This document shows positions 7,523-46,319 of a stretch of DNA of 46,319 nucleotides, piece after piece. The notes below the pieces were generated by a model, which worked only from the letters and a program-made list of their open reading frames with translations, ran no database searches and was not told the DNA's origin. The stretch comes from Flavobacteriales bacterium (GTDB taxonomy: Bacteria > Bacteroidota > Bacteroidia > CAIKAF01). Every line of letters starts with the position of its first letter. Within the stretch, counting starts at the first letter, position 1. The translations under genes were made by a program, and so were the position numbers. Location: positions 1 to 46,319 of the forward strand of contig JANWKT010000002.1 in the NCBI GenBank assembly GCA_025451235.1, in the 5' to 3' direction.

Positions 7523-10500
7523 ATGAGAAAATTATTACTCCTGTTATTTAGTTTTTTCAGTTTTACGGTTGGATATCTCCAAACCGAAAGTTTTCCTCTT
7601 GATCCTACTGGGTTCAATGCCGAGATGAATAAGTTCATGCGGCAAAACGACAATAAAGAGATCAAAGATTTTATGAAGGAGTTCGATACCGTATGGAATG
7701 ATGGTCCGTTCCAGATCTATCGTGACCAGGTGATTGCTTTCTCCAATTTAATGCTCAAGAAAAAGTACCGTCCGGAAACCCAATTCAAAATATACCTGAG
7801 AGCTGTTATGGACTTTCATAAAGCAGGGCATCCTAAATCAAATTTTGATGGCTGGCAAAAAGGACTTGAATGGATCTTGAAAAAGAAAAGCTCTACTTAT
7901 TTTTCTGAATATGTTGAAGCTTCCGATTATCTATTTACGGAGAATGCCCTCATCAAATTGCCGGGTCATGTATGGTTTAGCGAGACTCCCAATTATAAGA
8001 TAGAACTGATGGAGGATGATAAGATCGTATGGATATTCCCGGACATGAATTTATATTGTGTTGGAAAAGAGGATACCATTCTGATCGAAAAAACCTCTGG
8101 CATATATTATCCTCATGAGGATAGATTCGTAGGAAAAAAAGGGACGATTTACTGGACACGGAATAAGTTCAAGCGTGATGAAGTATATGCGAATCTCAAT
8201 AATTATTCGATGAGCGTAAAACGGTCAACCGTCATTGCTGACTCTGTTATGTTCACACATAAGCAATATTTCCCCAGCCCACTGATGGGAAGATTGGAGG
8301 AAAAGCTGACCGATATTGTAGAAGGAAAAGATTATTTCTACCCGAAGTTCGATTCTTATTCCAAAAAGTTTGAGATCAAGAATATTTTTTATCATACGGA
8401 TTATGAAGGAGGGTTTTCTTTCTACGGGAAGAGATTTATAGCCAAAGGTGATAGCATTGATTTGGCTACTATTAGGGTATATGATGATGGAAAATTATTC
8501 TTAAAAGCGGCCTCAAAAAACTTTGCTATTGAAGATGAAAAATTCACTTCACAGAGGGCGGCGGTCTATATTTACCTGGGAGGTGACAGTATTTTTCATC
8601 CCGGGTTGGATTTTAAAATATTGAAATCAGATTCTTCACTTTCCCTCACCCGGGCCGGTGAAGGAACTGTGCAAACCCCTTTTCAGGATTCGTATCATGA
8701 CGTGGAAATGTATTTTGAGCTTCTTTCCTGGAAAATGACAACTAAATATATGAGGGCTTCCTCCAGCTTGGGAGCCGATGAGAATGTAGCCAGGTTCCGG
8801 TCGGTAAAATTTTTCAACGAGGTTGAATATGAACGAATGCGGGGGATGGATGATATCCATCCACTAACAAAGCTCAAACAGTTTATTTTTTCCAAAGGTG
8901 ATACCTCCAAAACATTTCTGGCCATTGACTTTGCCAAATTCCTGAAGTTTGATCTTTCACAAACCAGGCAAATGCTGATGCGTTTTTCAATTGCCGGTCT
9001 TATTTCATATAATATCGACCAGGAAATGGGTACGGTGAATGAAAGGTTCTTCCATGTGATCAATTCGGCGGCACGAACTACAGATTACGACGTGATCGAA
9101 TTTTATTCCTCCATGCCCAGAAGTAAATCTAAAACCGCCTGGAACAACCAGGATGCCAATGCCACCTTAAGTCTCCTGGATTATAGATGGGACCTTAAAG
9201 GAGTAAACAATGTAATTATTTCCGACTCACAGGATGTGGAGATTTTCCCTTACGCTTCGCAACTTGTGTTGAAAAAAGACTTGAACTTTACCTTCAACGG
9301 CAGGTTATTCGGCGGAAGATTTGCTTTATATGGAAAAAATTTCGACTTCAATTATAAATTATTCAATTTCAAAAGCCCGGATATCGATTCTTTGATGCTG
9401 ATTGTACGAGGTTTTAAAAAAGACAAGAACTATATTGGCGAATTGCCCGATACTATTTTGCACAGCGTAATTGAGGACCTGAGTGGAGAATTTTATGTGG
9501 ACCACCCCAATAACAAGTCGGGACTCAAGCCCTTTCCCGAATTTCCCAGTTTTACTTCTACTAAGAAATCGTATGTATATTATGATGATTTCTATATTGA
9601 AAAAGGAGTGTATAAACGCAACGAATTCTATTTTATGCTGGAGCCATTTAAAAAAGACAGCCTGGATGATTTCCAGACCCAGCATTTAAAATTTGCAGGA
9701 ACTTTTGTATCAGATGGAATATTCCCGGATCTCAAGGAGGATCTCATCGTCATGCCCGACTATTCCTTAGGTTTTTTCAAAAAAATAGACCAGAAGGGAT
9801 TGAAAGCTTATGGGGGAAAGGCCACGTATTATGATACGCTTACTTTAACCAATCGGGGTTTACGAGGAGGCGGACGACTTGATTACTTGACCTCAACAGC
9901 AAAATCAAGGGATTTTGTTTATTATCCCGATTCCATGAATGCTTTTGCTTATTCATTTGGAATTAAAAAAACAGTAGGAGGTATCGCTACTCCAGATGTA
10001 AAAGGAAAAGATGTAAATATTCATTGGGAACCCGGAAAAGATGAATTCCAGGCCACAGAAACCGGGACCAAATTCGAAATGTATGAAGGGGAAGGTACCA
10101 TGAACGGAAAATTGACCTTAACACCCAGTGGACTTGAAGGAGACGGTAACTATCATTTCGGTCAGAATGCTGATTTAAAATCTGATCTGATCAAATTTAA
10201 AACCGAAACTTTTAAAGCAGATTCAGCCGGATTTTATTTATCGGATAATCCAACTGAAATTGGCGATACCGCAACAGTTGCATTTAAAACAGATAATGTA
10301 AAAGCGGATGTAACCTACGTCGACAGAAATGCCAGTTTCAAATCAAATAGTCCTGAATCATTTGTTGAATTTCCCGAGAACAGGTTTGTTGCCTATATGG
10401 AAGAAATGATATGGTATATGGACGATGGGACCGTTGATATGAACTCAAAAATGGTGGATGAAATTGGTTTAAAAGGAGCACTTTTTGTCTCGACGGATAA

Positions 10501-27797: not shown

Positions 27798-30700
27798 TTG
27801 AGCAAAGATATAGAAACCATACAAGGATTGGAAAAAGAAGAGGTTCCTACACCGAAAAAGAAAAGATCGGTGGGAAGAACCATATGGAAATGGTTTAGAA
27901 GAACTGTTTTAACTATTTTTATTATTGTTGTTGCGGCCCTGATCGCTTTACAACTACCCATCGTTCAAACCTGGATGGCTGGGCAACTAAGCAGTTATTT
28001 AAAAAGGAAATACGATCTGAACGTAAAAATTGACCGGGTCAATATTAATCTCTTTAGAAAAACCATAGCATTGAACCAAGTGATCGTGGGTGATCATCAT
28101 AACGACACCATTCTTCATGCTGGAATTGTAAAAGTGGATATTAAAAATATTTATCCCGGCAAGCAGTACATCGATGTAAAAAGGATAGTGATAGAGGATG
28201 GCTACGTGAACATCAGGACCTATAAAGGTGAAAAGATTCCGAATATTACCCAGTTCATCAATACACTCAGGGGGAATACCCAAAAAATAAAAAAGAAAAC
28301 CAAGAAATTTTGGGTTTTTAATGTATCCACGGTCGTTTTAGATGAATGTAATTTGCGGGTAAGAAATGAAAATCAAAAACTGTTCGATTCAGATTTTCTT
28401 CCCTCCGACATTCGTGTGCATAGTATTGGGGGAAAGGTAGGAAATTTTCAAGTAAGAGGTGATACACTGGAAATGGATGTTGAAAATCTCAGGGCTTTCG
28501 AAGAAAGCGGTCTGGCCATGAAGAAATTTTCTTCACACGTAGTGATCAGTTCCAAAGAACTTACTTTTAAAGGGTTTAAGATCAATACGTATAGAAGTTC
28601 CTTAGGAGGATATTTTTCCATGCGTTATGCCAACTGGAAAACCTTCGGTCATTTCAACGACAGTGTTTTCATGATCGCTGATCTGGATATGAGTGATATC
28701 AATGCAGCAGACCTCTCGTACTTCACCAATAATCTGAAAGGAATTGATTTTGACTTTAGGTTCAAGGGTGGAATGTCGGGAACCTTGGGCAATTTAAAAA
28801 GCGATGGATTCGCTTTGTATTTCGGAAGTGTAAGTCAAATGGTAGGAGATATTGAATTAAAGGGCCTTCCAAATATAGACTCCACCTATTTTTCGTTCCA
28901 GGTAAAAAAACTAACTACAAATGCCCTTGACCTTGAAAAAATACCCATACCCCCTTTTTATAAAAAAGAATATGTAAAAGTCCCGAAGGAAATTGAACGG
29001 CTGGGTGTAATCAAATACGAAGGACATTTAAAAGGTTATTTCTCAGATATGCATATCGACGGTTTTGCCACCACCAAGATCGGGAATGCTGACCTGGATG
29101 TACACCTGTTTAAACCATCTAAAAAGGAGGATTATCGTTATAATGGTAAGGTGGATGCCCAGCATTTCAATATAGGTGCCTTAACGGGCATCAGCTTATT
29201 GGGAAATGTTACTTTCAACGGGCATATTGATGGAAAAGGTTTCAATTTTCAAAAAGGATATATCAATTTCGACGGAAGGATCCAGCAGCTTGAATTTTAC
29301 GGATACAATTATAAAAACATAGATGCAAATGCCAAATATGGAAAAAATATTTTCGAAGGCATCGTCGACATCAAGGATTCAAATGCAAATGCCTCTTTTG
29401 TTGGAACCATTGATCTGAACAATAAAGATAAACCTGTTTACGACTTTACTGCTGAAATACGTAAAGCCGACCTGGTAGCTATTCACCTGGTAAAAAATCA
29501 ACAGGTATCTACTATTTCTACAGTATTGACGGTTCAACTGGAAGGAAAAACCATTGATGATTTGGTGGGTCAGGTAAGAATTTGTGGAACGGATTACCAG
29601 CAGGGCGACAAAACCTATCATATCGAAACCCTGGTATTGAATTCATTTATCAAAGATACTACCAAGACCATTGACCTGCACAGTGATATCATCAATGCAA
29701 AATTCAGCGGGCAGTTTAAATTCATTCCATTGATCAATGAGATCAAGCGACAGATCAACCATGCTGCGCCCAGCATGGGCATGAAGCCAGATGACAAGAT
29801 CGAGCATACACCGCAGAATTTTTATTTCTATGTGGTATTATCTCATCCGGAATTGCTAACACAGATCTTTATTCCGGATCTATCCATTTCCGATGGTTCA
29901 ACCATTGATGGGAGATTAGCATCCAAGGATAATTATTTGTCGATTGAGGTGAACTCAGAAAGAATTAAATACAAAAAGTTTGCCATAGACGAATTGTATT
30001 TCAACGCCAGGAATAAAGGCGAAAAATTAAGGATCATTTCTGATGCCAGTGCGTTCTATCTATCCGATAGTACAAAAATAGACAATCTAAATATAACCGC
30101 TACTGCAGTGAATGATTCCCTGGATCTATGGTTGGGATTCCAAAACGAGGCCTCGAATTTAAACGGAGCCAGCATTAATCTGCTTACTTATTTTGGGAAT
30201 GCTCCTGCCTATGAATTTCAGTTCCACGATTCCTATTTCTATTTCAATGATTCGCTTTGGGTATTAAATGATGACAACAAGCTAGTGCTTGATGGAAAAA
30301 CCTTAACGGTTGATAACCTCAATATCCGCACCCCCAGCTCATCCAAACCAATTTTAAGCATCAACGGGAAAAGCAGTGATTCGGATTCAAATAAAATATC
30401 GATCACTTTAAATAATTTTCCGTTGGAGATCGTGGATGGATTTATTCCATCGGATAAAATTAGACTGGAGGGTAGGATGGTAGGTAATATTGAGGTATAT
30501 AAAGTATTACAGAAACCATATTTTACCAGTTCCTTGGCCATTAAGGATACTGAGTTGAACGATATTTTAATAGGAAATTTTGGGCTCTCCTCTGTATATG
30601 ATCCGGTAAAACAAGACCTCACCCTTAATGCCGATCTTGTTTACGATGGTAAAAAGATCATATCCATTCAAAATGGGGTTATCAAGCTGAATACGAAGGA

Positions 30701-32414
30701 GGATGCTTTTAATGTAAAGGCTGATATTCATGGATTGGATCTTAGCATCGTTGAAAAAATGGCGAATCCTGTATTCACCAATTTGAAGGGCAGGGCATCT
30801 GGTTCCTTTTCTTTGACAGGAAAATTTAATGATCCACAAATATATAGCAAATTAAATTTACAGGGAGCTGGAATGAGACTGGCTTACCTGAATGCATATT
30901 TCAATTTCGATATGGATGATAAAGAGATCATCCTAACCAACGAATTAATTCGGATTCCTCAGATGAATATGACAGACCGGTATGGAAATGCGGGAACTGT
31001 AAAAGGAAAAGTGAACCATGTTCTATTTAAGAAGATCTTCCTGGATATAAGGCTGGAATGTAGGAACATGTGTGTAATGGAAACCACCGAAAAAGACAAT
31101 GAGCAGTTTTATGGGAAAGCCTATACAACAGGTAAAGCAACCGTTCTGGGCCCTATGGAAGATATCGTTGTGGTAGCCAATCTGGTAACCGAAAAGAATA
31201 CGGTTCTAAATATTCCTATTAATACAAAAAAATCGGTGAAGGAAAATAATTTTGTAATTTTTGTAAATCCTAATGATTCTACCGATGATACGGAAGTAAA
31301 AACGGAAGAAAAAGGAAATTTTACACTTGACCTGAATGTAAAAGCAACCCCGGATGCAAAGGTGAGGATCATCTTCGATGAAACGGTGGGAGATGTGATC
31401 ACATGCCAAGGTTATTCAGACAATATTAATCTTACGTTGAATACTAAAGGTAAATTTACCATGCTCGGTGCTTATGAAATAACCAAGGGGGATTATCTCT
31501 TTACTTTAAGAAATGTGATCAATAAATCGTTTACGATCAAACCGGGCAGTAGCATTATTTTTACCGGAGATCCTTACGATGCTTTGGTAAATGCCACTGC
31601 AGTATACAGGGCCAATGCTTCGATTTATCCTATTGTTTCGAGCTTCCTGGATCCAACCGAAGCAGAGAAATATAAAAAACCGGTAAGGGTAAATTGTGAA
31701 TTGGTCCTTACCAATACACTTTCCGACCTGTTGATCGGTTTTAATATTCAATTACCCAATGTAGACCAAAATGCAGCCAGCATTGTAAGATCATCCTTAA
31801 ATACCCAAGAAGAAATGAACCGACAGGTTTTTGCCCTCCTCGTATTGAACCAATTCTTACCATTGGAAAGCAGGGCGTCGGCTTCGAGCTTTAGTAACAA
31901 TGCCGCAACCAGTACTTTGGGTAATTCTTCTCTCGAATTGGTTTCAGGCCAATTGAACAACTGGCTCTCGAAGATCACCCAGGATGTAAATATTGACCTG
32001 CGGTATAACAGCGCGTCTAATAATCCCAACCAAAACAGTTATGCCAACGACCAGGTAAATGTCGCCTTAAGCACTCAATTGTTCAACGATAAGTTGATCA
32101 TCGATGGTGATGTGGGTGTGGGTGTAGGATCCAATACAACCACAAAAAGTAATATTGCCGGGAACGTATCCGTAGAGCTGAAACTTACCAATGATGGCAG
32201 GTTAAGGTTACGTGCTTTTAACAAGGTAAACGATAACCAGCTGGTAAACCCGCAATACAATTTTTACTCCCAAGGGATCGGTATCAACTATAAGGTGGAG
32301 TTCGATAACTGGGCTGATCTTTTTAAAAAGAAAGAAGAACCCAAAAAGCCGGTGGTAAAGAGAAGAAAGGATAATAAAGTGGAAGAGGTGAACGATTCGT
32401 TGAAGACGGATTGA
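27798..32414 (+). CDS. tamB: TamB-family outer-membrane assembly/lipid transfer protein
   Basis: This 1538-residue AsmA/TamB-like protein starts at TTG 27798; an in-frame stop at 27765-27767 limits any upstream start. A cytoplasmic N terminus of about 34 residues precedes one inner-membrane helix (VLTIFIIVVAALIALQLPIV). A long beta-rich body follows, opening with the AsmA-like VNINLFRKTIALNQVIVG. The C-terminal ~400 residues are the TamB (DUF490) domain, with GDYLFTLRNVINKSFTIKPG and, near the end, GIGINYKVEFDNW. A charged tail (KKKEEPKKPVVKRRKDNK) ends the protein. TamB-like proteins bridge the two membranes and are thought to help insert outer-membrane proteins or move phospholipids. It lies next to tsaD, as I recall for other Bacteroidota. 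Confidence 0.9.
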   Translation: MSKDIETIQGLEKEEVPTPKKKRSVGRTIWKWFRRTVLTIFIIVVAALIALQLPIVQTWMAGQLSSYLKRKYDLNVKIDRVNINLFRKTIALNQVIVGDHHNDTILHAGIVKVDIKNIYPGKQYIDVKRIVIEDGYVNIRTYKGEKIPNITQFINTLRGNTQKIKKKTKKFWVFNVSTVVLDECNLRVRNENQKLFDSDFLPSDIRVHSIGGKVGNFQVRGDTLEMDVENLRAFEESGLAMKKFSSHVVISSKELTFKGFKINTYRSSLGGYFSMRYANWKTFGHFNDSVFMIADLDMSDINAADLSYFTNNLKGIDFDFRFKGGMSGTLGNLKSDGFALYFGSVSQMVGDIELKGLPNIDSTYFSFQVKKLTTNALDLEKIPIPPFYKKEYVKVPKEIERLGVIKYEGHLKGYFSDMHIDGFATTKIGNADLDVHLFKPSKKEDYRYNGKVDAQHFNIGALTGISLLGNVTFNGHIDGKGFNFQKGYINFDGRIQQLEFYGYNYKNIDANAKYGKNIFEGIVDIKDSNANASFVGTIDLNNKDKPVYDFTAEIRKADLVAIHLVKNQQVSTISTVLTVQLEGKTIDDLVGQVRICGTDYQQGDKTYHIETLVLNSFIKDTTKTIDLHSDIINAKFSGQFKFIPLINEIKRQINHAAPSMGMKPDDKIEHTPQNFYFYVVLSHPELLTQIFIPDLSISDGSTIDGRLASKDNYLSIEVNSERIKYKKFAIDELYFNARNKGEKLRIISDASAFYLSDSTKIDNLNITATAVNDSLDLWLGFQNEASNLNGASINLLTYFGNAPAYEFQFHDSYFYFNDSLWVLNDDNKLVLDGKTLTVDNLNIRTPSSSKPILSINGKSSDSDSNKISITLNNFPLEIVDGFIPSDKIRLEGRMVGNIEVYKVLQKPYFTSSLAIKDTELNDILIGNFGLSSVYDPVKQDLTLNADLVYDGKKIISIQNGVIKLNTKEDAFNVKADIHGLDLSIVEKMANPVFTNLKGRASGSFSLTGKFNDPQIYSKLNLQGAGMRLAYLNAYFNFDMDDKEIILTNELIRIPQMNMTDRYGNAGTVKGKVNHVLFKKIFLDIRLECRNMCVMETTEKDNEQFYGKAYTTGKATVLGPMEDIVVVANLVTEKNTVLNIPINTKKSVKENNFVIFVNPNDSTDDTEVKTEEKGNFTLDLNVKATPDAKVRIIFDETVGDVITCQGYSDNINLTLNTKGKFTMLGAYEITKGDYLFTLRNVINKSFTIKPGSSIIFTGDPYDALVNATAVYRANASIYPIVSSFLDPTEAEKYKKPVRVNCELVLTNTLSDLLIGFNIQLPNVDQNAASIVRSSLNTQEEMNRQVFALLVLNQFLPLESRASASSFSNNAATSTLGNSSLELVSGQLNNWLSKITQDVNIDLRYNSASNNPNQNSYANDQVNVALSTQLFNDKLIIDGDVGVGVGSNTTTKSNIAGNVSVELKLTNDGRLRLRAFNKVNDNQLVNPQYNFYSQGIGINYKVEFDNWADLFKKKEEPKKPVVKRRKDNKVEEVNDSLKTD
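27803..27810 (-). promoter_or_regulatory. Candidate -7 element for tsaD, inside the tamB start region
   Basis: The minus strand reads TATCTTTG, an exact match to TAnnTTTG, 24 bases before the tsaD ATG at 27778. It supports that start over the longer open frame. It also covers codons 2-5 of tamB if tamB starts at TTG 27798. No clear -33 was found. Confidence 0.45.
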
Positions 32415-32416
32415 TC

Positions 32417-33412
32417 CTAGTAAACCTCATCTGCCCATTCAGGCAAAAATGTTCTGAACTTTGTGCTATCATAGTTAACAGAATCAAGCAATACCAACTT
32501 GTTATTTTGAAATGAATAAATGAGGTCATAAAGCGCATATTCCTTGACCGTATAGTCGCGGTTCTCTTCGGTTAAATGTTCAGTGAAATTTTCACCATAA
32601 CTTCTCTTAATAAATAATGGGAAATGATCAACAAAACGTGTTATGTCCTCATCGTATTCCATATTGAGCAATTTACCATCAGACAAGGCATACAGGCCCT
32701 CCCGTTTATTGGTAGGTACATAAACATATTCCCCCTCATTCACCAATTCCACTCCACTGGTACTGTAGTACAATAAAGAATCAAAGTGGTCAGTATAGCG
32801 GAATAAATAATTTTCGGTCATAAAGCCACAAGCTGCCCATTCAAAATTTACATGGAAGAATAATTCATTCCCATCACCTAAAAAATCAAGCCGTTTAAAT
32901 GTACCTCCTTGTTCCATTTCATCATAATAAGGGTTTCCAAATCTATACCTGGATTTTATTACCTTGTTTTCAAAAGCTCTTAATTCACAATAATAATGGA
33001 AATTGGTATCTATTTCCTCAAACCCGAATAAGAAAAGTTGGGCCGTATCCTTTGGATGAATATAATACTCAATTGTCAAATCGTCTTCTTGAACATACCC
33101 CTTTTTCCAAACATTATTCTTAAAATATTTTCCTACATAAAAAAAATCTCGTTCTTTTTTACTATAAATTCTACTTTTAACCGTATCCACCCAAAAAATG
33201 GTAGCCATATCTATGCTATCCATCAATAATCTTTTATCGGGTCCCAAATAGATCCTACTGGTTGCAGAAAAAGAATAGAATTTCTGTAAATGTCCGCTTA
33301 TCTGGATAGTATCACCATTAGGTAAATCAATCACCGGGATCTTTACCGGCTTACCTGAATTGCAGGAAAGTATCAATAAAATACCTATTATGCCCACGAT
33401 CGTTCTGTTCAT
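32417..33412 (-). CDS. Lipoprotein of unknown function, copy 1 of a pair
   Basis: This 331-residue protein has a lipoprotein signal MNRTIVGIIGILLILSCNSG (lipobox LILSC, Cys17). I recognise no named domain. The mature part is beta-rich and contains a distinctive core, FFHVNFEWAACGFMTENYLF (around residues 185-205). A region aligning with EGEYVYVPTNKREGLYALSD follows. The same core occurs in the next gene upstream (YLHTYYPACGYMSTHSYVNY, then PVIYFPT), so the two are diverged tandem copies of equal length. It is the last gene of an apparent operon with a CotH-like T9SS protein and copy 2. It converges with tamB, leaving two bases between the stops. Confidence 0.75.
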   Translation of the reverse strand: MNRTIVGIIGILLILSCNSGKPVKIPVIDLPNGDTIQISGHLQKFYSFSATSRIYLGPDKRLLMDSIDMATIFWVDTVKSRIYSKKERDFFYVGKYFKNNVWKKGYVQEDDLTIEYYIHPKDTAQLFLFGFEEIDTNFHYYCELRAFENKVIKSRYRFGNPYYDEMEQGGTFKRLDFLGDGNELFFHVNFEWAACGFMTENYLFRYTDHFDSLLYYSTSGVELVNEGEYVYVPTNKREGLYALSDGKLLNMEYDEDITRFVDHFPLFIKRSYGENFTEHLTEENRDYTVKEYALYDLIYSFQNNKLVLLDSVNYDSTKFRTFLPEWADEVY

Positions 33413-33431
33413 TGTTTCAAAAATACAAAAA

Positions 33432-34421
33432 CTACTTTATACTTAGATCTTCCAGTTGAGTTCCATTCCAACGATACAATTTCCGGTCCGATATAATATC
33501 AAATAAAAGAGGCTCTTGATATTCGTCCAACAATACCTCTCCGTTCACTACCGAATCTGTATTTTCCCAACGTTCGATATAGATCAATTGGTTGACCGGA
33601 ATATTTAATGAATCAGGAACTCTATACGTTTTTGGTCTTCCGTTCTCATCTCTGGTTATGTAGTTATCCCACATATCATATAATAGATTCTTTTTATTGA
33701 GTACAGTGGGGAAATAGATCACAGGTGAATTATAATAGGGAGCATCAGCCCAGGAAATATCTTGTAAAATAAGATTGAAAGAACCTTTGGTGTAGTTCAC
33801 ATAGCTATGCGTACTCATATATCCACAGGCAGGATAATAGGTATGTAGATAGATGAGCTCATAGGTGTTCGACAATCTCACCGAATCGAGACTTACCAGC
33901 TCCAGATAAGTAATATCCGATGTTACCGTATCCACTGCTTTTTCTACCAGTGTTTTTCCATTTCTAACCGCTTTTAATCTTACTTCCCGAAAGCCAGGCT
34001 CTGTAAGAATAAAATTGCCCAGATAAATAATACTCGTATCTTTTTGTGACCTGAGTGATCCAGCTGAAAGACTGCTGCCATTCATCACTCCTCTCCCTAT
34101 TTTCCCATTATTAATATAGTTAACATCCATACATTCACGCCAACCATCACCATCCACCACATAATAAACCGAATCGATGAATACTTGAAACCCTACGATC
34201 AAGGTATCAAGGATGGTGGATTCTGTCGTATCAGCAAAAACAAAATTCATTTCATCGAAAGTAAATAAGGAAGTCACCGTGTTCCTTGGATTCATTAAAT
34301 CGGGTATGGTCTGGTGATTTTGAGCCACCTTTGCATGTACCTCACCTGATCTTTTGGAGTGACAACTGTATAAAATCCATCCAACAGGTATAAAAAACAA
34401 AAAAAAAGTAAGTCTTTTCAT
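33432..34421 (-). CDS. Lipoprotein of unknown function, copy 2 of a pair
   Basis: I start at ATG 34421 (MKRLTFFLFFIPVGWILYSC), 329 residues; the first in-frame ATG, two codons earlier at 34427, is equally possible. The lipobox is LYSC, with Cys20 of this start. After a Ser/Arg-rich spacer comes a beta-rich domain with YLHTYYPACGYMSTHSYVNY (about residues 193-212) and PVIYFPT, aligned by eye with the equivalent region of copy 1. It ends FDIISDRKLYRWNGTQLEDL, where copy 1 has a similar YDLIYSFQNNKLVLLD. The gene lies 13-19 bases after the CotH-like gene and 19 bases before copy 1, so the three are very likely one transcript. Function is unknown. Confidence 0.75.
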   Translation of the reverse strand: MKRLTFFLFFIPVGWILYSCHSKRSGEVHAKVAQNHQTIPDLMNPRNTVTSLFTFDEMNFVFADTTESTILDTLIVGFQVFIDSVYYVVDGDGWRECMDVNYINNGKIGRGVMNGSSLSAGSLRSQKDTSIIYLGNFILTEPGFREVRLKAVRNGKTLVEKAVDTVTSDITYLELVSLDSVRLSNTYELIYLHTYYPACGYMSTHSYVNYTKGSFNLILQDISWADAPYYNSPVIYFPTVLNKKNLLYDMWDNYITRDENGRPKTYRVPDSLNIPVNQLIYIERWENTDSVVNGEVLLDEYQEPLLFDIISDRKLYRWNGTQLEDLSIK

Positions 34422-34440
34422 GGTCAATAAAAATCTTTGG

Positions 34441-37400
34441 CTAAAACTTCACAAATTTTAAACTCACCATTTGGTGAGAAGAGGTTTTCAACCTGATAAA
34501 ATAGATCCCTGCCTCCAATCGGGCTACCTGAAGAATGGTTTGTGCAGAATGGTTGCTAAGAATTCCATTCATGGTAATTCTGCCTTGAATGTCTACAATT
34601 TCAAACGAGTAAGGTTTTTCTGTAGAAAAATGTGTATTTACAACATGCAGTATATTATTCGTAGGAGATGGGTACAATTGAAAATCAAGTTCTAACTCAT
34701 TTTCAATTCCTGCACCAGGTATGAGTTCGAAATATGCTTTGAACAGGATGGTACTCGTGGTTAACGTGTCGTTGTAAACACTGTTTAAAGTATCCGCAAT
34801 CAATCCATTGGGCTCCCAATGAGAAAACTGATATCCACTATCGGCAATCGCTTCAATTTTTACGGGTAATCCATCAAAATAAATTCCATTCCAAGGATAA
34901 GGTTCGGGAGTAATGGTACTGATATGGATCTTGCCTGCATTTGCCGGATAAACATCCAGCGTTACATCCACTTGCTGAGGTAATCCGTAATTGTTTTGGA
35001 TATGATTTCTTACTTGCGGAGTTCGGCAAACCAACTCATCCCGAAACTCAAGGTGATTGTCATAAAAATCCATCATTTGCGCCGGTACATTCCATGGATC
35101 TCCCCAACGCTGAAACTCGTTGGCCATTTCTGATGCCGTTTGATCAAACATTTCCTGTTCTATCATTAACATCCGATTAGGCTGGTACAAAGTATTCATG
35201 AGGTCCGCAAACCGATTGATAAAATAATTTTTAAACTTGCCGTTTTGCATGCCTACCATCCAGATATTGATATAAGGGTGTCCTGGATTTTGGTTAATGA
35301 TGTAGTTGATATGATCAAAGTAGCAATCCGTCCATCCATTGGGTTCAAGGGCCAGCTCCTGATCTATCAGGCAAAACCTCCAACGATGGTTGGTAGCATT
35401 CGAGCGATAGATCTTAACATTGTTATGTGGCCAGTCTGTATTACCCATCCAGGACTCAGCAATGATGTAGTCATTGTAATATTGCATATCGAAATATTGA
35501 TCCGACTGGGTCCAAAATCCAGTATCAGCAGGATTGATCAATAAAAAGCTGTTATAATCATCATAAAAATTCTGCACATCTCCCACCAAGGCCCTTAAGG
35601 TAGAATTATAAAATGCACTTAAGGAAAGAATTTCAGTAGAGTCAGGATCTGCATTTTCGAGGGTATTGAACATTTCCATATTCCATTTTTCCCGCAATTC
35701 ATACAGCCCAAAATATGCTCCATTGATATAAACTGAAACTGGTCGCCAGGCTGAATAGTAATTATTGGACCCCTTGGCTAATATCTTCACCTGACAAGCA
35801 TCTTTATATGGAAATTGCAGGTATTGGTTGCTCCCGTTCCTCAAATAAAAATCGCTGAATATTGTTCTATCGGGTCGATCGGGAATAACCTGATAGTTCA
35901 CCAGGCCCTCACCCAAAACTCCATCCGCAAATTTTATCCTAAAAGAATGTTGCGGCTGCGACCTGCTTCCTCCCCAACCTCCATCCATAATAATTCCAAC
36001 TCTCCTTTTAAATAGTAAATTGTGAGCATCCGTAGAGTCAAAATAATCCACATGTGCCGCCTTTAACCAATCTTCATTGTAATTATCAAACATTCCGTTA
36101 GGTCCATACAAGTTATTATCGTCCGTTACCAATGAGATAATGGGTGTAATATGATCCACATTGAAAAAATAGGAAACACTCGTACAGGTACTGGGTAAAA
36201 ATCCTGGGGCATAGGCCTTGGCCCTTAAAACAGTTGTTTGATAAATGGGAATGGGTGTCCCGTTAAACAGGATATCCGAATTATCAGGTTCACTTCCATC
36301 GGTGGTATAGTAAATCTGCGCCAATGGAACATTTGGGTCAATAATATTTACTGAAAAAGGAACCGAATGAAAACTGCTATTTACACTAAAAATGGGTGCC
36401 AGTGAAAAATCATCATAAGGAATGGATCCGTTGTTAGTAGCATTGGGTGTAGGTGGTTGAAATTTCTTGATGAGTGCAGAACCATCGGGAAAAGATCCTA
36501 TGCTTAGATCATAAGTGCTTCCACAATCCACCTGAAGGCTACTTAACAATACCTGAGAGGGTGAAAATAAATATACCTGTTCGCCATTCGACGAAAGTTT
36601 GAAATTGGTATGATTGAGATAACCTTGTAAAGGATAATAGGTGCTTGGCATTTGGTAATCGTTCACGGCAAGAATGCTGTATTCGATATAGGTATAATTC
36701 ACTGAATCGGTCGACACAATATCAAATGACAAAGAGTTGATATTACCGGCTGATAATCCAGCTGCTGTGAGCTCCGGCTGTTTGATCATCATTTGATGTC
36801 TGGCTCCCCAATACCAGTTGCCATAGGGAGCAGGGTAACTGTAAGGTGAGTTCATAACAGAATCAGTTCCAATGGTCAATCCGTTCAACCGAATATTGGG
36901 GCGTTGTGCAAGCACAGTTCCTATCTGGTCATAACATGCATTATTGCTTCCATCTTCGTAAGAAAAAAGAGTGGAGTGGTAATTTGTATAGGATTGGTTA
37001 TGTACTGAATTGGTAATGTATCCCGTATTGCTATAAGAACAAACGTTGATCACAATGTTTGAAATCCCATCCCAATTGAAAGGGGTTGTAAAATTATGAA
37101 GGTTCCAGCCGGTGGTGGGTATAAATGATCCGGTGTTCAGTACGGTTGTAAAAGCTGTGGTGGCATATCTATCCTTTTCGCTGCAAAATATAACCGTATA
37201 TCCTCCAGCAGGTATAATGAGATGGGGTAATATCCATTTACCTGGAATTAATGGGTCATCCGTTAATGAATAATTATAAACATCCACTGGTGCTGCTCCG
37301 GCATTGTGTAATTCAATCCAATCAGGGTACTCTCCATCCTCATCGGCAAGGGTTGAATAATTTTTATTGCTGCCTTCGTTGATAACGATTTGGGCCTGCA

Positions 37401-37449
37401 AAAAATAAAAAGGAATACACGCGAAAATGACGAGGAAGGCTTTTTTCAT
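34441..37449 (-). CDS. Secreted CotH-kinase-like protein with lamin-tail and T9SS domains
   Basis: I start at ATG 37449 (MKKAFLVIFACIPFYFLQAQ, 1002 residues) because a -7 element overlaps the earlier ATG at 37467. Domain order: signal peptide; lamin-tail domain (about 20-120, NEGSNKNYSTLADEDGEYPD and DWIELHNAG); a jellyroll-like region; a chitobiase/hexosaminidase C-terminal-like domain (IYYTTDGSEPDNSD, about 375); a CotH kinase-like domain (about 430-780) with RRVGIIMDGGWGGSRSQPQH, ELREKWNMEMF, GNTDWPHNNVKIYR and RFCLIDQELAL; an InlB-like beta domain; and a type A T9SS signal (FQLYPSPTNNILHV ... IYFIRLKTSS). CotH proteins have an atypical protein-kinase fold, and both key Asp positions appear present here. 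Substrate unknown. Confidence 0.88.
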   Translation of the reverse strand: MKKAFLVIFACIPFYFLQAQIVINEGSNKNYSTLADEDGEYPDWIELHNAGAAPVDVYNYSLTDDPLIPGKWILPHLIIPAGGYTVIFCSEKDRYATTAFTTVLNTGSFIPTTGWNLHNFTTPFNWDGISNIVINVCSYSNTGYITNSVHNQSYTNYHSTLFSYEDGSNNACYDQIGTVLAQRPNIRLNGLTIGTDSVMNSPYSYPAPYGNWYWGARHQMMIKQPELTAAGLSAGNINSLSFDIVSTDSVNYTYIEYSILAVNDYQMPSTYYPLQGYLNHTNFKLSSNGEQVYLFSPSQVLLSSLQVDCGSTYDLSIGSFPDGSALIKKFQPPTPNATNNGSIPYDDFSLAPIFSVNSSFHSVPFSVNIIDPNVPLAQIYYTTDGSEPDNSDILFNGTPIPIYQTTVLRAKAYAPGFLPSTCTSVSYFFNVDHITPIISLVTDDNNLYGPNGMFDNYNEDWLKAAHVDYFDSTDAHNLLFKRRVGIIMDGGWGGSRSQPQHSFRIKFADGVLGEGLVNYQVIPDRPDRTIFSDFYLRNGSNQYLQFPYKDACQVKILAKGSNNYYSAWRPVSVYINGAYFGLYELREKWNMEMFNTLENADPDSTEILSLSAFYNSTLRALVGDVQNFYDDYNSFLLINPADTGFWTQSDQYFDMQYYNDYIIAESWMGNTDWPHNNVKIYRSNATNHRWRFCLIDQELALEPNGWTDCYFDHINYIINQNPGHPYINIWMVGMQNGKFKNYFINRFADLMNTLYQPNRMLMIEQEMFDQTASEMANEFQRWGDPWNVPAQMMDFYDNHLEFRDELVCRTPQVRNHIQNNYGLPQQVDVTLDVYPANAGKIHISTITPEPYPWNGIYFDGLPVKIEAIADSGYQFSHWEPNGLIADTLNSVYNDTLTTSTILFKAYFELIPGAGIENELELDFQLYPSPTNNILHVVNTHFSTEKPYSFEIVDIQGRITMNGILSNHSAQTILQVARLEAGIYFIRLKTSSHQMVSLKFVKF

Positions 37450-37732: not shown

Positions 37733-40700
37733 ATGACTGAAGTAGAAATTTACCAGGCAAAAAATAAAATCAGAATTGTTACCGCCGCCTCTTTATTCGA
37801 TGGACATGATGCTGCCATTAATATTATGCGCAGAATTATCCAGGCTAGCGGAGCTGAAGTGATCCACCTGGGGCACGACAGAAGTGTGGATGAAGTAGTG
37901 AACTGTGCCATACAGGAAGATGCCAATGCAATCGCCATTACCAGTTACCAGGGCGGACATATAGAATATTTTAAATATATGTACGACCTGCTGAAACAAC
38001 GAGGTTGCGGACATATAAAAATATTTGGTGGGGGTGGTGGAGTTATTCTCCCTACCGAAATTGAAGAACTCCATGCATATGGAATTACCAGGATCTATTC
38101 GCCCGACGATGGAAGATCGATGGGATTGCAAGGAATGATCAACGACCTGATGATGAAATCTGATTTCCCTACAGGGTATAGATTGAACGGAGAAGCGGCA
38201 CATTTAAAAGAACAGGATGCAAAATCAATCGCTACTTTAATTTCGGCTGCAGAAAATTATCCGGAAGAGAACAAAGAAGTTTTTGAAGAGATCAATAAAA
38301 AAGCAGCCACCAGCAAAACTCCTATTTTAGGAATTACCGGTACAGGTGGTGCTGGAAAAAGTAGTTTGGTTGATGAGTTAGTCCGTCGTTTCCTGGTTGA
38401 TTTTACAGATAAGAAAATAGGGATTGTATCGGTGGATCCCTCTAAACGTAAAACAGGTGGTGCTTTATTAGGTGATAGGATCCGGATGAATTCCATCAAT
38501 AGTCCAAGGGTATATATGCGCTCTTTGGCCACACGTCAAAGTAACCTGGCGTTGAGTAAACATGTAAAAGAAGCAGTGGATATTTTAAAAGCTGCCCATT
38601 TCGACCTGATTATTTTAGAAACCAGCGGAATTGGGCAAAGTGATACGGAGATTATTGAGCATAGCAATGTAAGCTTATATGTAATGACCCCTGAATACGG
38701 GGCCGCCACCCAGCTCGAAAAAATCGATATGCTCGATTTTGCGGACATCATTGCATTGAACAAATTTGATAAACGAGGTGCGTTGGATGCCATCCGTGAT
38801 GTAAAAAAGCAATATAAGCGTAACCATCAACTATGGGAAGTGGATGATGAAAAACTTCCGGTATTTGGAACCATTGCATCTCAATTCAACGATCCTGGTA
38901 TGAACAGTTTGTATAAAGCTGTGATGGATAAAGTAGTGGAAAAAACAAATGCCCCTTTAAAAAGCACTTTCTCGACCACCGATGAGATGAGTGAAAAAAT
39001 TTATATCATTCCTCCGCAGCGTACCAGGTATTTATCTGAAATTAGTGACACAGTTAGAAAATATAATAAATGGGCTGAAGAACAGGGAGAAATCGCCCAA
39101 CAATTATATTCCCTGCGCAATTCCATTGAGATCGTCAAAAAGAAAAAGGGGAATGAAGCTTTGGTGGACCATCTGGAGAAAGAGTATGAGGAGATCAAAT
39201 TAAAACTGGATGGGCAGAACTGGAAGTTGATTGAAACCTACCCAGCCCTGGCTGAAGCCTATACCAAAGATGAATTTATTTTTAAGGTAAGAGATAAAGA
39301 AATAAAAATACAAACCTATTACGAATCCTTATCACATACCAAAATCTCCAAAGTCTCTTCGCCGAAATATAAAGCATGGGGTGATCTGTTGAAATGGCAA
39401 TTGCAAGAAAATTTCCCAGGATATTTTCCCTATACATCCGGAGTATTTCCATTCAAACGCGAAAACGAAGACCCTACCCGAATGTTTGCCGGTGAAGGTG
39501 GACCCGAACGTACCAACAAACGTTTCCACTATGTAAGTTTAGGAATGCCAGCCAAACGTTTGAGTACTGCTTTTGATTCCGTAACTCTATACGGACGTGA
39601 TCCGCATCATCGTCCTGATATTTATGGTAAAGTGGGGAACAGTGGAGTAAGCATTTGTTGTTTGGACGATGCAAAAAAATTATACAGTGGTTTCGATCTT
39701 TCTGCTCCCAATACTTCGGTGAGTATGACCATTAATGGACCGGCCCCAACGATTGCCGCTTTCTTTATGAACGCAGCTATCGATCAGAATTGCGAAAAAT
39801 ACATCAAGGCCAATGGGCTTGAAAAAGAAATAAAAGCAAAGATCGACCAGATGTTTGCTGCCAAAGGCATGACGCAACCTGTTTACCAAGGTGATATTCC
39901 GGAAGGAAATGATGGATTGGGTCTCATGTTATTGGGCTTAACAGGTGATCAGGTGCTCCCAGCTGATATCTATGCAAAAATTAAAAAAGAAACCATTGCG
40001 GCGGTTCGTGGAACTGTGCAAGCTGATATTTTAAAAGAAGACCAGGCACAGAATACTTGTATTTTCTCCACCGAATTTTCGTTACGTGTAATGGGTGATA
40101 TGCAACAATATTTTATCACCAACAATATTCGTAATTTTTATTCGGTATCTATCAGCGGTTATCATATTGCTGAAGCCGGTGCAAATCCCATCTCACAATT
40201 GGCCTTTACACTCGCCAATGGATTTACCTATGTTGAATATTACAGAAGCCGGGGAATGGATATCAATTCATTTGCTCCCAATTTATCTTTCTTCTTCAGC
40301 AATGGGATCGATCCTGAATATTCAGTCATAGGTCGTGTAAGTCGTAGAATTTGGTCAAAGGCCATGAAGAATTTATATGGCGCCAATGAAAGAAGCCAGA
40401 TGTTGAAATACCATATCCAAACATCTGGCAGAAGTTTACATGCACAGGAAATCGACTTCAATGATATTCGAACCACCTTGCAAGCCTTATACGCTATTTA
40501 TGATAATTGCCAGAGCTTGCATACGAATGCTTATGATGAGGCGATCACCACCCCTACCGAAGGATCGGTAAGAAGAGCCATGGCCATACAGCTCATCATT
40601 AACAAAGAATTGGGGTTGGCAAAAAATGAAAATCCTATCCAGGGTTCGTTTATTATTGAAGAATTGACCGACCTGGTTGAGGAAGCGGTGATGACTGAAT

Positions 40701-41107
40701 TCGACCGGCTTACTGAACGTGGTGGAGTATTGGGTGCTATGGAAACCATGTACCAGCGGGGAAAGATCCAGGAAGAAAGTTTGTATTATGAAATGTTGAA
40801 ACATACAGGTGAATATCCGATTATTGGCGTAAATACATTTTTAAGCAGCCAGGGTTCACCTACCATCATTCCAAAAGAAGTGATCCGATCAACTCCTGAA
40901 GAAAAAGAATACCAGATCAGCATGCTGGACAATCTGCATCAATTCAATGACGAAAAAAGCCATCAGTTATTGAGAGATATTCAATTAGCCGCGATCAAAA
41001 ATGAAAATATTTTCGAAAAGCTGATGGAAGTTTCCAAATATTGTTCGCTGGGACAAATTACCCAGGCCTTGTTTGAGGTGGGTGGGCAGTATAGAAGGAA
41101 TATGTAG
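37733..41107 (+). CDS. icmF: Fused isobutyryl-CoA mutase (IcmF)
   Basis: This 1124-residue enzyme joins three parts. A B12-binding domain (about 12-150) has [12 protein letters not shown]; His25 is the predicted lower cobalt ligand. A MeaB-like G-protein chaperone (about 195-400) has [38 protein letters not shown] and NKFDKRG. An acyl-CoA mutase TIM barrel (about 520-1124) has [14 protein letters not shown] and [14 protein letters not shown]. This order is IcmF, which uses adenosylcobalamin to interconvert isobutyryl- and n-butyryl-CoA. By eye, positions matching methylmalonyl-CoA mutase Tyr89 and Arg207 (Propionibacterium numbering) are Phe574 and Gln773. That is the isobutyryl type, so I do not call it a methylmalonyl-CoA mutase. 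The gene has its own promoter. Confidence 0.93.
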
Positions 41108-42728: not shown

Positions 42729-45700
42729 TTATTTGATCAAGGTAACTCTTCCTATAAACTCATGGAAGTCATTATGTCCATCCACTACCTCTATTCGATA
42801 CACATATACTCCCTGCGGACAAATATTTCCGTTTAAAGTGGTTCCAGGCCAACCTTTAGCAATGTTATCAAAGGTATAGATCTCTTCACCCCATCGGTTG
42901 AATATTCTAGCCATGATGGTTTTAATTCCCATTCCATATACATTCCAGGTTTCATTCAAATTATCATCATTTACGGTAAACGCATCTGGAATAAATAAAG
43001 TAAATACAGGTGCCACATATAAGCAACCGGTAGTTGTATCTGTACAACCGGCATTGTTCGCTACGGTCAATACGATGCAATAAGTTCCAGTGTCTGGATA
43101 TGCATGAATTGGATTCTCCAGATTGGATGTTCCACCATCCCCGAAAGTCCAGAACCAGGTGGTCGCTCCGGTAGAAGTGCTGGCAAAAATAACTTCCGGA
43201 TCAGATATCTCAATTTCCTGTGGAGTAAACATAAAAGATGCCACCGGATTAGGACTCACGGTTATATAATTGGGCATGGTTAATACCGAAGAACATCCGT
43301 CAGACGTAATAACGGTTAAGGAAGCATCATAAACTCCTGGAGAATTAAAACAGAAGGTTTCATTTTGATTGGTAGAAGGATTTTGTCCTTCTACATTCCA
43401 ATTCCAGGTGGTGATCGTTCCACCGTTTCCAATACTTTGATCTGTTAAGTTTACACAAAGTGGAACACAACCAGATAAAGGACCACCAACAAACTGTGCA
43501 GTAGGCAATGGGTTAATGACCACATTCACAGTCGCAGTCCCTGTGCATCCTGACGCATTGGTAGCTAACACCGTATAAGTTCCGGTTGCTAAAATGGTAG
43601 CATTCACGATACTTGGATTCTGTTGGTTAATCGCAGTAAATCCATTCGGACCTATCCAATCATAATTAGCACCGGGAATGTTTTGTGCCCCCAGATCAAG
43701 TTGTACACCTTCACAAATAGGTCCGTTACTGAACGCATTAAACACCAGGTTCGTATTAATAATGGCGGTAGTAGTAGCTGTTGAACTACAACCATTCGCA
43801 TCCGTTACAGTAACTGTATAAACACCTCCTGCTGCTAATGGCGCATTCGCAATGCTAGGGTTCTGGGTGGCGGCTGCAGAGAAACCATTTGGTCCGGTCC
43901 AATCGTAGGCGATACCTCCATTTGCAGTAAGATCTAATTGTTGTAATTCGCAAATAGGTGTATTGTTATTCGCAACTGCATTTGGAAGCGAATTGATGGT
44001 AACATTTGTAGTCGCTGTTGAACTACAACCATTCACATCCGTTACGGTTACTGTATAGGTTCCACTCATGGCAGGAGTAACTCCAGGTATCGAACCATTT
44101 TGTGTATTGTTCAATGAAAAACCTCCAGGTCCTGTCCAATCAAAATCAATTCCACCATTTGAACTGAGGTCCATTGTTGAGCCATCACAATAAGGTCCGG
44201 TATTAGCTGCATTTGGAACTGGTAATGCATTTACTGTTACAACTGTTGTTGTGCTCGAAGTACATCCTGCAGCATCGGTTACAGTAACTGAATAAGTTCC
44301 ACTCATTCCAGTCGTCGAAGAACCGATGGTTGGATTTTGGGTTCCGTTTGCATAAGTCAATGGCCCTGTCCAACTATAACTATTTCCTCCCCCTGAATTC
44401 AATTGTATGGTGGCACCTTCGCAATAAGGGCCTGTGTTAGATGCATTCGGAACTGGCAGTGCATTTACAACCACATTCGTGGTGGAAGAAAAAGTACATC
44501 CTGCGGCATTCGTAACTGTTACTGTATAGATGCCGGACATGGCTGGTGTGGATGATCCTATGGTTGGATTTTGAGTTCCATTTGCATACGCAGCAGGTCC
44601 CGACCAGGAATAAGTTCCTCCTCCGGTTCCATTTAATTGTATCGTTGCACCTTCACAATAAGGTCCCGTATTCGATGCAGTTGGTGTTGGCAATGCATTT
44701 ACCGTAACAACCGTGGTTGTACTCGAAGTACATCCTGCTCCATCCGTTGCAACAACCGTATAAGTTCCTGTCATTCCAGCGGTGGACGAACCGATGGTTG
44801 GATTTTGCGTTCCATTACTATATGCTAAAGGTCCACTCCAACTATAACTATTTCCACCTCCTGAATTCAATTGTATCGTAGCTCCTGCACAATAAGGTCC
44901 GGTATTCGAAGCATTGGGTACAGGCAATGGATTCACGGTTACAGTTGTGGTTGCCGTTGAAGTACACGCTGCGGCATTGGTCACCGTTACTGTATATATT
45001 CCACTCATTCCTGTTGCGGATGATCCGATCGTTGGGTTTTGTGTTCCGTTGGCATAAGCCAATGGTCCACTCCAACTATAACCGGTTCCACCAGATGAAT
45101 TCAATTGTATAGTTGCACCAGCACAATAGGGACCTGTGTTGGATGCATTTGATGTTGGTAATGCATTTACGGTAACAATCGTAGTTGTGCTGGAAGTACA
45201 TCCGGCTCCATCCGTTGCAACAACCGTATAAGTTCCAGTCATTCCAGGTGTTGATAAACCAATCGTTGGGTTTTGGGTTCCGTTGCTATAAGCCAATGGT
45301 CCACTCCAGCTATAACTGTTTCCTCCTCCTGAATTTAATTGTATAGTTGCTCCTGCACAATATGGGCCGGTGTTGGATGCATTTGGAGTTGGAAGCGGAT
45401 TCACGGTTACCGTGGTTGTTCCAGTTCCAGTACATCCTCCGGCTACTGTTATCTGTACAGTATAAACACCGCTCATCGCTGTAGTTGAAGAACCAATGGT
45501 TGGATTCTGTGTTCCATTTGTATAAGTCAACGGTCCTGTCCATGAATAAGCGGTTCCTCCGGCCGTTGCATTTAATTGTATGGTCGCACCGGCACAATAG
45601 GGTCCAGTATTTGATGGCGAAACAGCGGCAGATGCATTGACGGTTACTGTTGTAGTAGCAGTCGAGGTGCAGCTACCAGCACCGGTAACCGTAACTGTAT

Positions 45701-46319
45701 ACACTCCGCTCATTGCTGGAGTCGATAAACCAATGGTGGGATTTTGTGTTCCATTTGCATAAGTCAATGGTCCACTCCAAGCATAAGTTCCACCGCCCGA
45801 TGAATTTAATTGTATGGTAGCGCCAGCACAATAAGGTCCGGTATTCGATGCATTGGCTATGGGTAATGCATTTACCGTAACTGTTGTTGTAGCTGTTGCT
45901 GTGCAACTGCCGGCTCCAGTAACGGTTACGGTGTATACTCCACCCATGGCAGGAGTAGATGATCCCAAGGTTGGATTTTGTGTACCGTTTGCATACGTTA
46001 AAGGTCCACTCCAAGCATAAGTACCTCCACCTGAAGAGTTCAATTGTATAGTTGCCCCCTCACAATAAGGCCCGGTATTCGATGCATTCGGAACGGGAGT
46101 TGCATTTACAGTTACGGTTGTGGTGCTTGTTGAGGTGCAACTTCCGGCACCTGTTACTGTTACTGTATAGACTCCACTCATGCCAGTTGTCGATGGACCT
46201 AATGTTGGATTTTGTGTTCCATTTGAATATGTCAATGGACCACTCCACGCATAAGTTCCACCACCAGATGAATTTAATTGTATGGTTGAACCTGCACAAT
46301 AAGGTCCGGTATTCGATGC
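42729..46319 (-). CDS. Giant Ig-like-repeat surface protein with type B T9SS signal (5' end missing)
   Basis: The coding frame continues without a stop to the right edge, so the N terminus is outside the window; the TTG at 46235 is not a real start. Visible from the N-terminal side: 12 Ig-like repeats of about 78 residues (typically NTGPYCAGATIQLNSSGGG, then YSWSGPLTYANGTQNPTIG, then AMSGVYTVTVTGAGSCTS), each with two Cys that probably form a disulfide. Two PKD-like domains follow (starting near 43502 and 43244; WTFGDGGTSNLENPIHAYPD). The C terminus (43001 down to 42732) is the gliding-motility-type, type B T9SS domain: FIPDAFTVNDDNLNETWNVY, ARIFNRWGEEIYT, GVYVYRIEVVD. An adhesin-like surface or released protein is likely. 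Confidence 0.92.
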   Translation of the reverse strand, partial: ASNTGPYCAGSTIQLNSSGGGTYAWSGPLTYSNGTQNPTLGPSTTGMSGVYTVTVTGAGSCTSTSTTTVTVNATPVPNASNTGPYCEGATIQLNSSGGGTYAWSGPLTYANGTQNPTLGSSTPAMGGVYTVTVTGAGSCTATATTTVTVNALPIANASNTGPYCAGATIQLNSSGGGTYAWSGPLTYANGTQNPTIGLSTPAMSGVYTVTVTGAGSCTSTATTTVTVNASAAVSPSNTGPYCAGATIQLNATAGGTAYSWTGPLTYTNGTQNPTIGSSTTAMSGVYTVQITVAGGCTGTGTTTVTVNPLPTPNASNTGPYCAGATIQLNSGGGNSYSWSGPLAYSNGTQNPTIGLSTPGMTGTYTVVATDGAGCTSSTTTIVTVNALPTSNASNTGPYCAGATIQLNSSGGTGYSWSGPLAYANGTQNPTIGSSATGMSGIYTVTVTNAAACTSTATTTVTVNPLPVPNASNTGPYCAGATIQLNSGGGNSYSWSGPLAYSNGTQNPTIGSSTAGMTGTYTVVATDGAGCTSSTTTVVTVNALPTPTASNTGPYCEGATIQLNGTGGGTYSWSGPAAYANGTQNPTIGSSTPAMSGIYTVTVTNAAGCTFSSTTNVVVNALPVPNASNTGPYCEGATIQLNSGGGNSYSWTGPLTYANGTQNPTIGSSTTGMSGTYSVTVTDAAGCTSSTTTVVTVNALPVPNAANTGPYCDGSTMDLSSNGGIDFDWTGPGGFSLNNTQNGSIPGVTPAMSGTYTVTVTDVNGCSSTATTNVTINSLPNAVANNNTPICELQQLDLTANGGIAYDWTGPNGFSAAATQNPSIANAPLAAGGVYTVTVTDANGCSSTATTTAIINTNLVFNAFSNGPICEGVQLDLGAQNIPGANYDWIGPNGFTAINQQNPSIVNATILATGTYTVLATNASGCTGTATVNVVINPLPTAQFVGGPLSGCVPLCVNLTDQSIGNGGTITTWNWNVEGQNPSTNQNETFCFNSPGVYDASLTVITSDGCSSVLTMPNYITVSPNPVASFMFTPQEIEISDPEVIFASTSTGATTWFWTFGDGGTSNLENPIHAYPDTGTYCIVLTVANNAGCTDTTTGCLYVAPVFTLFIPDAFTVNDDNLNETWNVYGMGIKTIMARIFNRWGEEIYTFDNIAKGWPGTTLNGNICPQGVYVYRIEVVDGHNDFHEFIGRVTLIK
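43503..46319 (-). repeat. Tandem ~234-base repeats encoding Ig-like domains
   Basis: Units begin near 46088, 45854, 45620, 45383, 45149, 44915, 44681, 44447, 44213, 43979 and 43745, plus one cut by the right edge. Most are 234 bases (78 codons); one is 237 and the last 243. The units nearest the window edge are the most alike; the three nearest the C terminus (starting 44213, 43979 and 43745) are the most diverged. A two-unit pattern is visible: the units at 45383 and 44915 share one variant, and those at 45149 and 44681 share another. Confidence 0.9.

Follow-up and report, generated by a model that had tools for sequence, protein, structure and literature searches.

Does a secreted protein of the CotH family form a functional unit with the two lipoproteins encoded directly behind it, or does it act on its own beside them? 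The question is raised by a locus in the window, which here means the whole stretch of 46,319 nucleotides analyzed (Flavobacteriales bacterium, GenBank assembly GCA_025451235.1, contig JANWKT010000002.1, positions 1 to 46,319), where an earlier note had proposed an unusual system consisting of a surface or extracellular CotH-kinase-like enzyme, exported by the type IX secretion system (T9SS), and two lipid-anchored partners. Three genes are concerned:

37449-34441, minus strand: cotH-like gene, ATG start, 1002 amino acids
34421-33432, minus strand: lipoprotein A gene, 329 amino acids, lipobox LYSC (Cys20), no Pfam or NCBIfam family
33412-32417, minus strand: lipoprotein B gene, 331 amino acids, lipobox ILSC (Cys17), a diverged homologue of lipoprotein A

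Open reading frames (ORFs) at these coordinates place the genes in a row, and the gaps between cotH and lipoprotein A and between lipoproteins A and B are 19 bases each, in agreement with the spacing of under 20 bases claimed before; the lipoproteins, said to be equal in length, are near-equal (329 versus 331 amino acids). The evidence presented here makes it fairly probable that the large protein is a standalone, T9SS-exported surface protein of the CotH family, kinase-like and of a kind common in Bacteroidota, lying beside a lineage-specific lipoprotein pair. Its regions are as follows:

CotH protein, N-terminus: signal peptide
CotH protein, amino acids 21-102: LTD-like (lamin-tail) domain
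CotH protein, amino acids 376-424: CHB_HEX_C_1/Fn3_assoc (chitobiase-like) region
CotH protein, amino acids ~430-825 (Pfam 494-801): CotH kinase-fold domain
CotH protein, amino acids 856-909: B-repeat-like stretch, below cut-off
34444-34677, minus strand: T9SS type A C-terminal sorting domain by Pfam and NCBIfam, amino acids 925-1002 (925-1001 in the domain listing)

Membership in the CotH family (PF08757) is indicated by a Pfam score of 54.3 bits against a cut-off of 23.8, covering profile positions 7-320 of 322. Scores above cut-off were also obtained for the sorting domain (Por_Secre_tail, 39.4 bits, cut-off 27; TIGR04183, T9SS type A sorting, 38.2 bits, cut-off 23) and for the chitobiase-like region (CHB_HEX_C_1, 37.9 bits, cut-off 22; Fn3_assoc, 33.8 bits, cut-off 23), and the T9SS translocon protein SprA is encoded in the same genome (2315.9 bits). 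The sorting domain and the genomic SprA together mark the protein as predicted T9SS cargo, so that the T9SS export, CotH-like, and chitobiase-like assignments of the earlier note all stand. Its lamin-tail domain stands in part, since the LTD match has an E value of 6e-6 but scores 27.0 bits, under the cut-off of 34.3. A region around the motif WYWGARHQ (36673-37164; amino acids 96-259 of the CotH protein), probably an unnamed domain and with no Pfam match, is seen again in very large surface proteins encoded by this genome and by related ones (e.g., G000:C1:144386-144568).

An AlphaFold model of the CotH domain, built from an alignment of 62 CotH domains, has a predicted local distance difference test score (pLDDT) of 94.1 and a predicted template modeling score of 0.92, and its top matches in the PDB are the two entries for the Bacillus cereus CotH kinase, 5jd9 and 5jda (Foldseek E 1.1e-10 and 6.6e-11). 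Structural superposition aligned 335 residues of 358 with 5jd9 (Z 33.5) and 334 residues with 5jda (Z 33.3), both at a root-mean-square deviation of 2.5 Å, while the next fold (PI4K, CtkA) reached only Z 11.4. Because the model is confident and the B. cereus matches lie far above the next fold, the domain as modeled is a complete CotH atypical-kinase fold, which goes beyond a weak profile match. Matches to HipA, PI4K, CtkA, and Fam20 (Z 8-11) were treated as remote kinase-fold relatives and were not proposed as families.

The putative active site is located in a short stretch of this domain:

35362-35436, minus strand: putative catalytic segment with D672 and N677 (GNTDWPHNN) and D696 (LIDQE), coordinates taken from the reading frame

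Both Asp positions pointed out in the earlier note are thus present, and D672, N677, and D696 are invariant in 83/83 homologues compared, as are N576 and G581; the CotH regions of these homologues are from ~23% identical to the window protein upwards, with the full protein of a congener reaching 73%. In ordinary protein kinases, the metal-binding Asn follows the catalytic Asp by five residues (D166 and N171 in PKA), and the spacing from D672 to N677 is likewise five. In the model, D672 and N677 directly precede a two-strand hairpin and D696 directly follows it, a placement that fits a catalytic loop and a metal-binding Asp as expected. The D228Q and D251A forms of Bacillus subtilis CotH are described as catalytically inactive (PMC7821199), and the spacing of 24 between D672 and D696 compares with 23 between D228 and D251. 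Taken together, a match of D672 and D696 to the two catalytic or metal-binding Asp residues of CotH is strongly suggested. The claim of a secreted CotH-family protein is therefore borne out, with the kinase-type fold intact and the putative catalytic residues kept.

The proposed partnership with the lipoproteins fared differently. The flanks of the three genes are formed by:

27798-32414: tamB, convergent with the cotH and lipoprotein genes, on their downstream side
37733-41107: fused methylmalonyl-CoA mutase-type gene, upstream of cotH and divergent

Lipoproteins A and B are absent from all 60 relatives searched and, apart from weak distant matches, from 345 genomes of the class. Downstream sequence of at least 2.2 kilobases (kb) is available at 60 of the 83 CotH homologue loci, and 0/60 carry a lipoprotein of this family; no CotH lies near the lipoprotein relatives in genomes G201, G091, G183, and G068. 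Close CotH orthologues (43-73% identity) share no common downstream gene, the genes behind them being unrelated and in many cases convergent. In the congener (G001), cotH (73% identity), tamB (71%), and tsaD (84%) have the same arrangement as in the window, but cotH and tamB are separated by a DUF2071 gene plus a small ORF in place of the lipoproteins. The two congeners differ completely in what this interval contains: positions 32415-34440 of the window, bounded by the convergent genes cotH and tamB, hold the lipoprotein pair, and positions 7603-8760 of the congener locus L025 hold the DUF2071 gene and the small ORF, a membrane ORF. Since the lipoproteins are absent beside CotH in the congener, the relatives, and the homologue loci, the cotH-lipoprotein-lipoprotein order is, as far as the compared sequences go, particular to this genome. 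Lack of conservation of this order in relatives had been named beforehand as refuting the three-gene system, which is consequently not supported: the order recurs in 0/60 relatives and 0/60 homologue loci and is missing in the congener, and the lipoproteins are lineage-specific and stand beside CotH nowhere else among the genomes examined.

The CotH protein, by comparison, is of a common Bacteroidota kind. Some match to it occurs in 49/60 relatives, many of them to accessory domains rather than to the CotH domain, and a genome scan gave 524 relatives among 586 pattern matches, from Bacteroidota and neighboring phyla. One genome encodes four tandem T9SS paralogues with lamin-tail and CotH domains (L032, G044:C38, 6579-19229). 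At some distant CotH loci, a lipoprotein of ~132 amino acids, different from those in the window, begins ~14 bases after CotH, often together with VTC, DUF4956, and DUF2490 genes. This cassette (CotH, small lipoprotein with C..EGEGG..I.GKVY, VTC, DUF4956, DUF2490) recurs in Bacteroidota in varying order:

CotH/VTC/DUF4956-type cassette loci: L033 7688-13942; L035 2876-9111; L036 6518-13895; L081 3687-10341; L104 8001-14068

Its recurrence suggests that exported CotH proteins are linked to polymerases of the polyphosphate type, and a joint occurrence of CotH, poly-phosphate polymerase, and DUF4956 genes next to Gram-positive pel clusters has been reported (PMC7112168). A second CotH gene of the window's own genome (contig C34; 8569-13737 of locus L044, G000:C34:88000-107000) is followed by genes for a 134-amino-acid lipoprotein, a 162-amino-acid protein, DUF4956, and DUF2490, and no VTC family match was found anywhere in this genome. 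The window CotH lies outside such a cassette, with the lipoproteins, tamB, and the methylmalonyl-CoA mutase-type gene as its neighbors.

The two lipoproteins, which the earlier note could not assign to a family, match none in Pfam or NCBIfam, and its view of them as paralogues is weakly but really supported. They are ~20% identical (direct BLASTP E 0.013), their local alignment (Z 5.3) has a score reached by 0/1000 shuffles, and a protein of G201 aligns with both (Z 11.3 for A, 6.7 for B), whereas one of G091 aligns significantly with A only. These alignments point to diverged homologues within a rare Bacteroidia family. Because profile searches of 295 and 395 class genomes returned further members only in G091, G183, G201, and G068, and marginally in G304, the family appears rare, scattered, and envelope-directed. 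A weak match of lipoprotein B in G108 was rejected on account of three stop codons. The distant relative in G183 (L048) has an N-terminal bacterial SH3 domain (SH3_3, PF08239; 29.3 bits, cut-off 27), which aligns with a part of lipoproteins A and B that itself gives no Pfam match. A structure predicted for the pair from two-sequence input gave no confident fold (pLDDT 31.6) and was not used. The distant relative in G068 (L139, G068:C51, 555-2826) lies beside a recombinase-like gene (404 amino acids), with a resolvase-like gene within ~7 kb, and is possibly on a mobile island; both recombination genes were judged by eye from their translations.

Surface lipoproteins of Bacteroidetes carry described signals after the lipobox Cys (K-(D/E)2, SDDDD, SDDFE; PMC5080379). 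By-eye comparison with these found no acidic export signal in CHSKRSG (A) or CNSGKPV (B), although this clade may use other signals, and the lipoproteins are for this reason more likely to face the periplasm than the surface; the surface placement suggested earlier is not indicated. Promoter and terminator pattern scans at the locus gave matches at chance level, and TAnnTTTG motifs were as frequent as in shuffled sequence (3 seen, 3.2 expected), so that the operon structure is deduced from gap size. The G+C content of the lipoprotein genes (37.7% and 34.8%) is below that of cotH (39.9%) and of the window (39.6%), which is compatible, if weakly, with later acquisition. Elsewhere in the window (42729-46235, minus strand), a large protein with repeated Ig_7/PKD units and a CHU_C type IX secretion domain at its end is a probable adhesin.

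Several other explanations of the locus have to be set against a CotH protein acting alone. A true lineage-specific three-gene unit, in which the lipoproteins were gained in this lineage and serve the CotH kinase as substrates, anchors, or regulators, would account for the single strand, the two 19-base gaps, the lack of a terminator-like site in either gap (the terminator scan being at chance level), and the mutual homology of the lipoproteins. It is nonetheless improbable, given that the lipoproteins are not found beside CotH in the congener or any other genome tested, that their homologues exist with no CotH nearby, and that no surface-export signal follows the lipobox Cys. Its more elaborate form, a T9SS-delivered CotH kinase with two dedicated partners from an undescribed, possibly SH3b, family, making up an envelope phosphorylation unit of one genome, is quite improbable. 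Cooperation with two other proteins, a VTC protein resembling polyphosphate polymerases and the DUF4956 membrane protein, is very improbable for this gene: the cassettes of other Bacteroidota, the sets beside Gram-positive pel clusters (PMC7112168), and the DUF4956 and DUF2490 genes near the CotH on contig C34 speak for it, but no VTC family member was found in the genome, and such neighbors are missing from the examined flanks of the window CotH and of its close orthologues (L050-L068).

It is also conceivable, though unlikely, that the CotH domain has ceased to be a kinase and has become a pseudokinase-like or binding module in an adhesin or matrix protein. The extracellular side normally lacks adenosine triphosphate (ATP), modules such as LTD, CHB, and B-repeat are characteristic of proteins that bind at surfaces, and Glu698 occupies the second acidic position, at which Asp is found in most distant homologues. 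Glu at this position is, however, normal in the protein's own clade (26/27), the fold is complete, and the invariance of D672, N677, and D696 across all 83 homologues would be unusual for a decayed active site.

A standalone kinase-like CotH protein is itself opposed by a number of points. The CotH domain is ~10-11% identical to the solved B. cereus kinase, and the roles of its residues were for this reason deduced from spacing, conservation, and overall fold instead of from residues matched one by one; a supply of ATP outside the cell is doubtful, and kinase activity is beyond what sequence can show. The 19-base gaps hint at co-transcription and would be compatible with a real local partnership. 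Additionally, a single congener was compared, at 77% completeness, and the pair could be conserved in an unsampled subclade.

With these points weighed, the CotH protein is probably an active atypical kinase by its sequence and model, and a standalone one. Bearing a C-terminal type A sorting domain, the 1002-amino-acid protein would be exported by Sec and then by the T9SS, ending on or outside the cell surface, where the lamin-tail and chitobiase-like modules would bind surface components. D672 probably serves as the catalytic base, with N677 and D696 as the likely metal/ATP ligands, and the most likely substrates would be Ser/Thr residues of proteins that belong to the envelope or are secreted alongside, phosphorylated in the course of export or afterwards. 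The protein would act alone, since each of its orthologues is a single gene and the neighbors vary. The lipoproteins would be a pair specific to this lineage and would represent diverged copies within a family of exported proteins that is rare in Bacteroidia. Their genes fill the stretch, variable from one congener to the other, between the convergent cotH and tamB; by virtue of this position they are probably transcribed together with cotH, and the proteins most likely face the periplasm. The window CotH is therefore a good but ordinary example, and the lipoproteins add an undescribed small family and no system; the three-gene partnership is possible but unsupported. Bacteroidota commonly encode CotH-fold proteins that combine T9SS signals with full conservation of the putative catalytic residues, and searches of openly available papers for CotH together with type IX secretion or with lamin-tail proteins turned up none that treats these proteins as T9SS cargo. 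Protein phosphorylation outside the cytoplasm by such proteins is a testable question.

Compared with known systems, the window CotH resembles the spore-coat kinase CotH of Bacillus (5jd9/5jda; PF08757) in fold, Pfam family, and near-equal Asp spacing, but is ~10% identical to it, is exported by the T9SS of a Gram-negative bacterium, and is fused to LTD, CHB, and sorting domains; spore-coat substrates are not known for the window protein. The SH3_3 (PF08239) exported proteins touch on the lipoproteins through the relative in G183, which carries that domain, whereas the window lipoproteins have no Pfam match. The CotH/VTC/DUF4956 cassette, including the accessory genes of Gram-positive pel clusters (PMC7112168), shares a CotH-family gene with the window locus, which has neither VTC nor DUF4956, while the CotH on contig C34 adjoins DUF4956. 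The LTD-CHB-CotH T9SS proteins of Bacteroidota and neighboring phyla, found at hundreds of loci, have a similar architecture at ~25-73% identity and differ in nothing essential; the one peculiarity of the window gene is the pair of lineage-specific lipoprotein genes that follow it.

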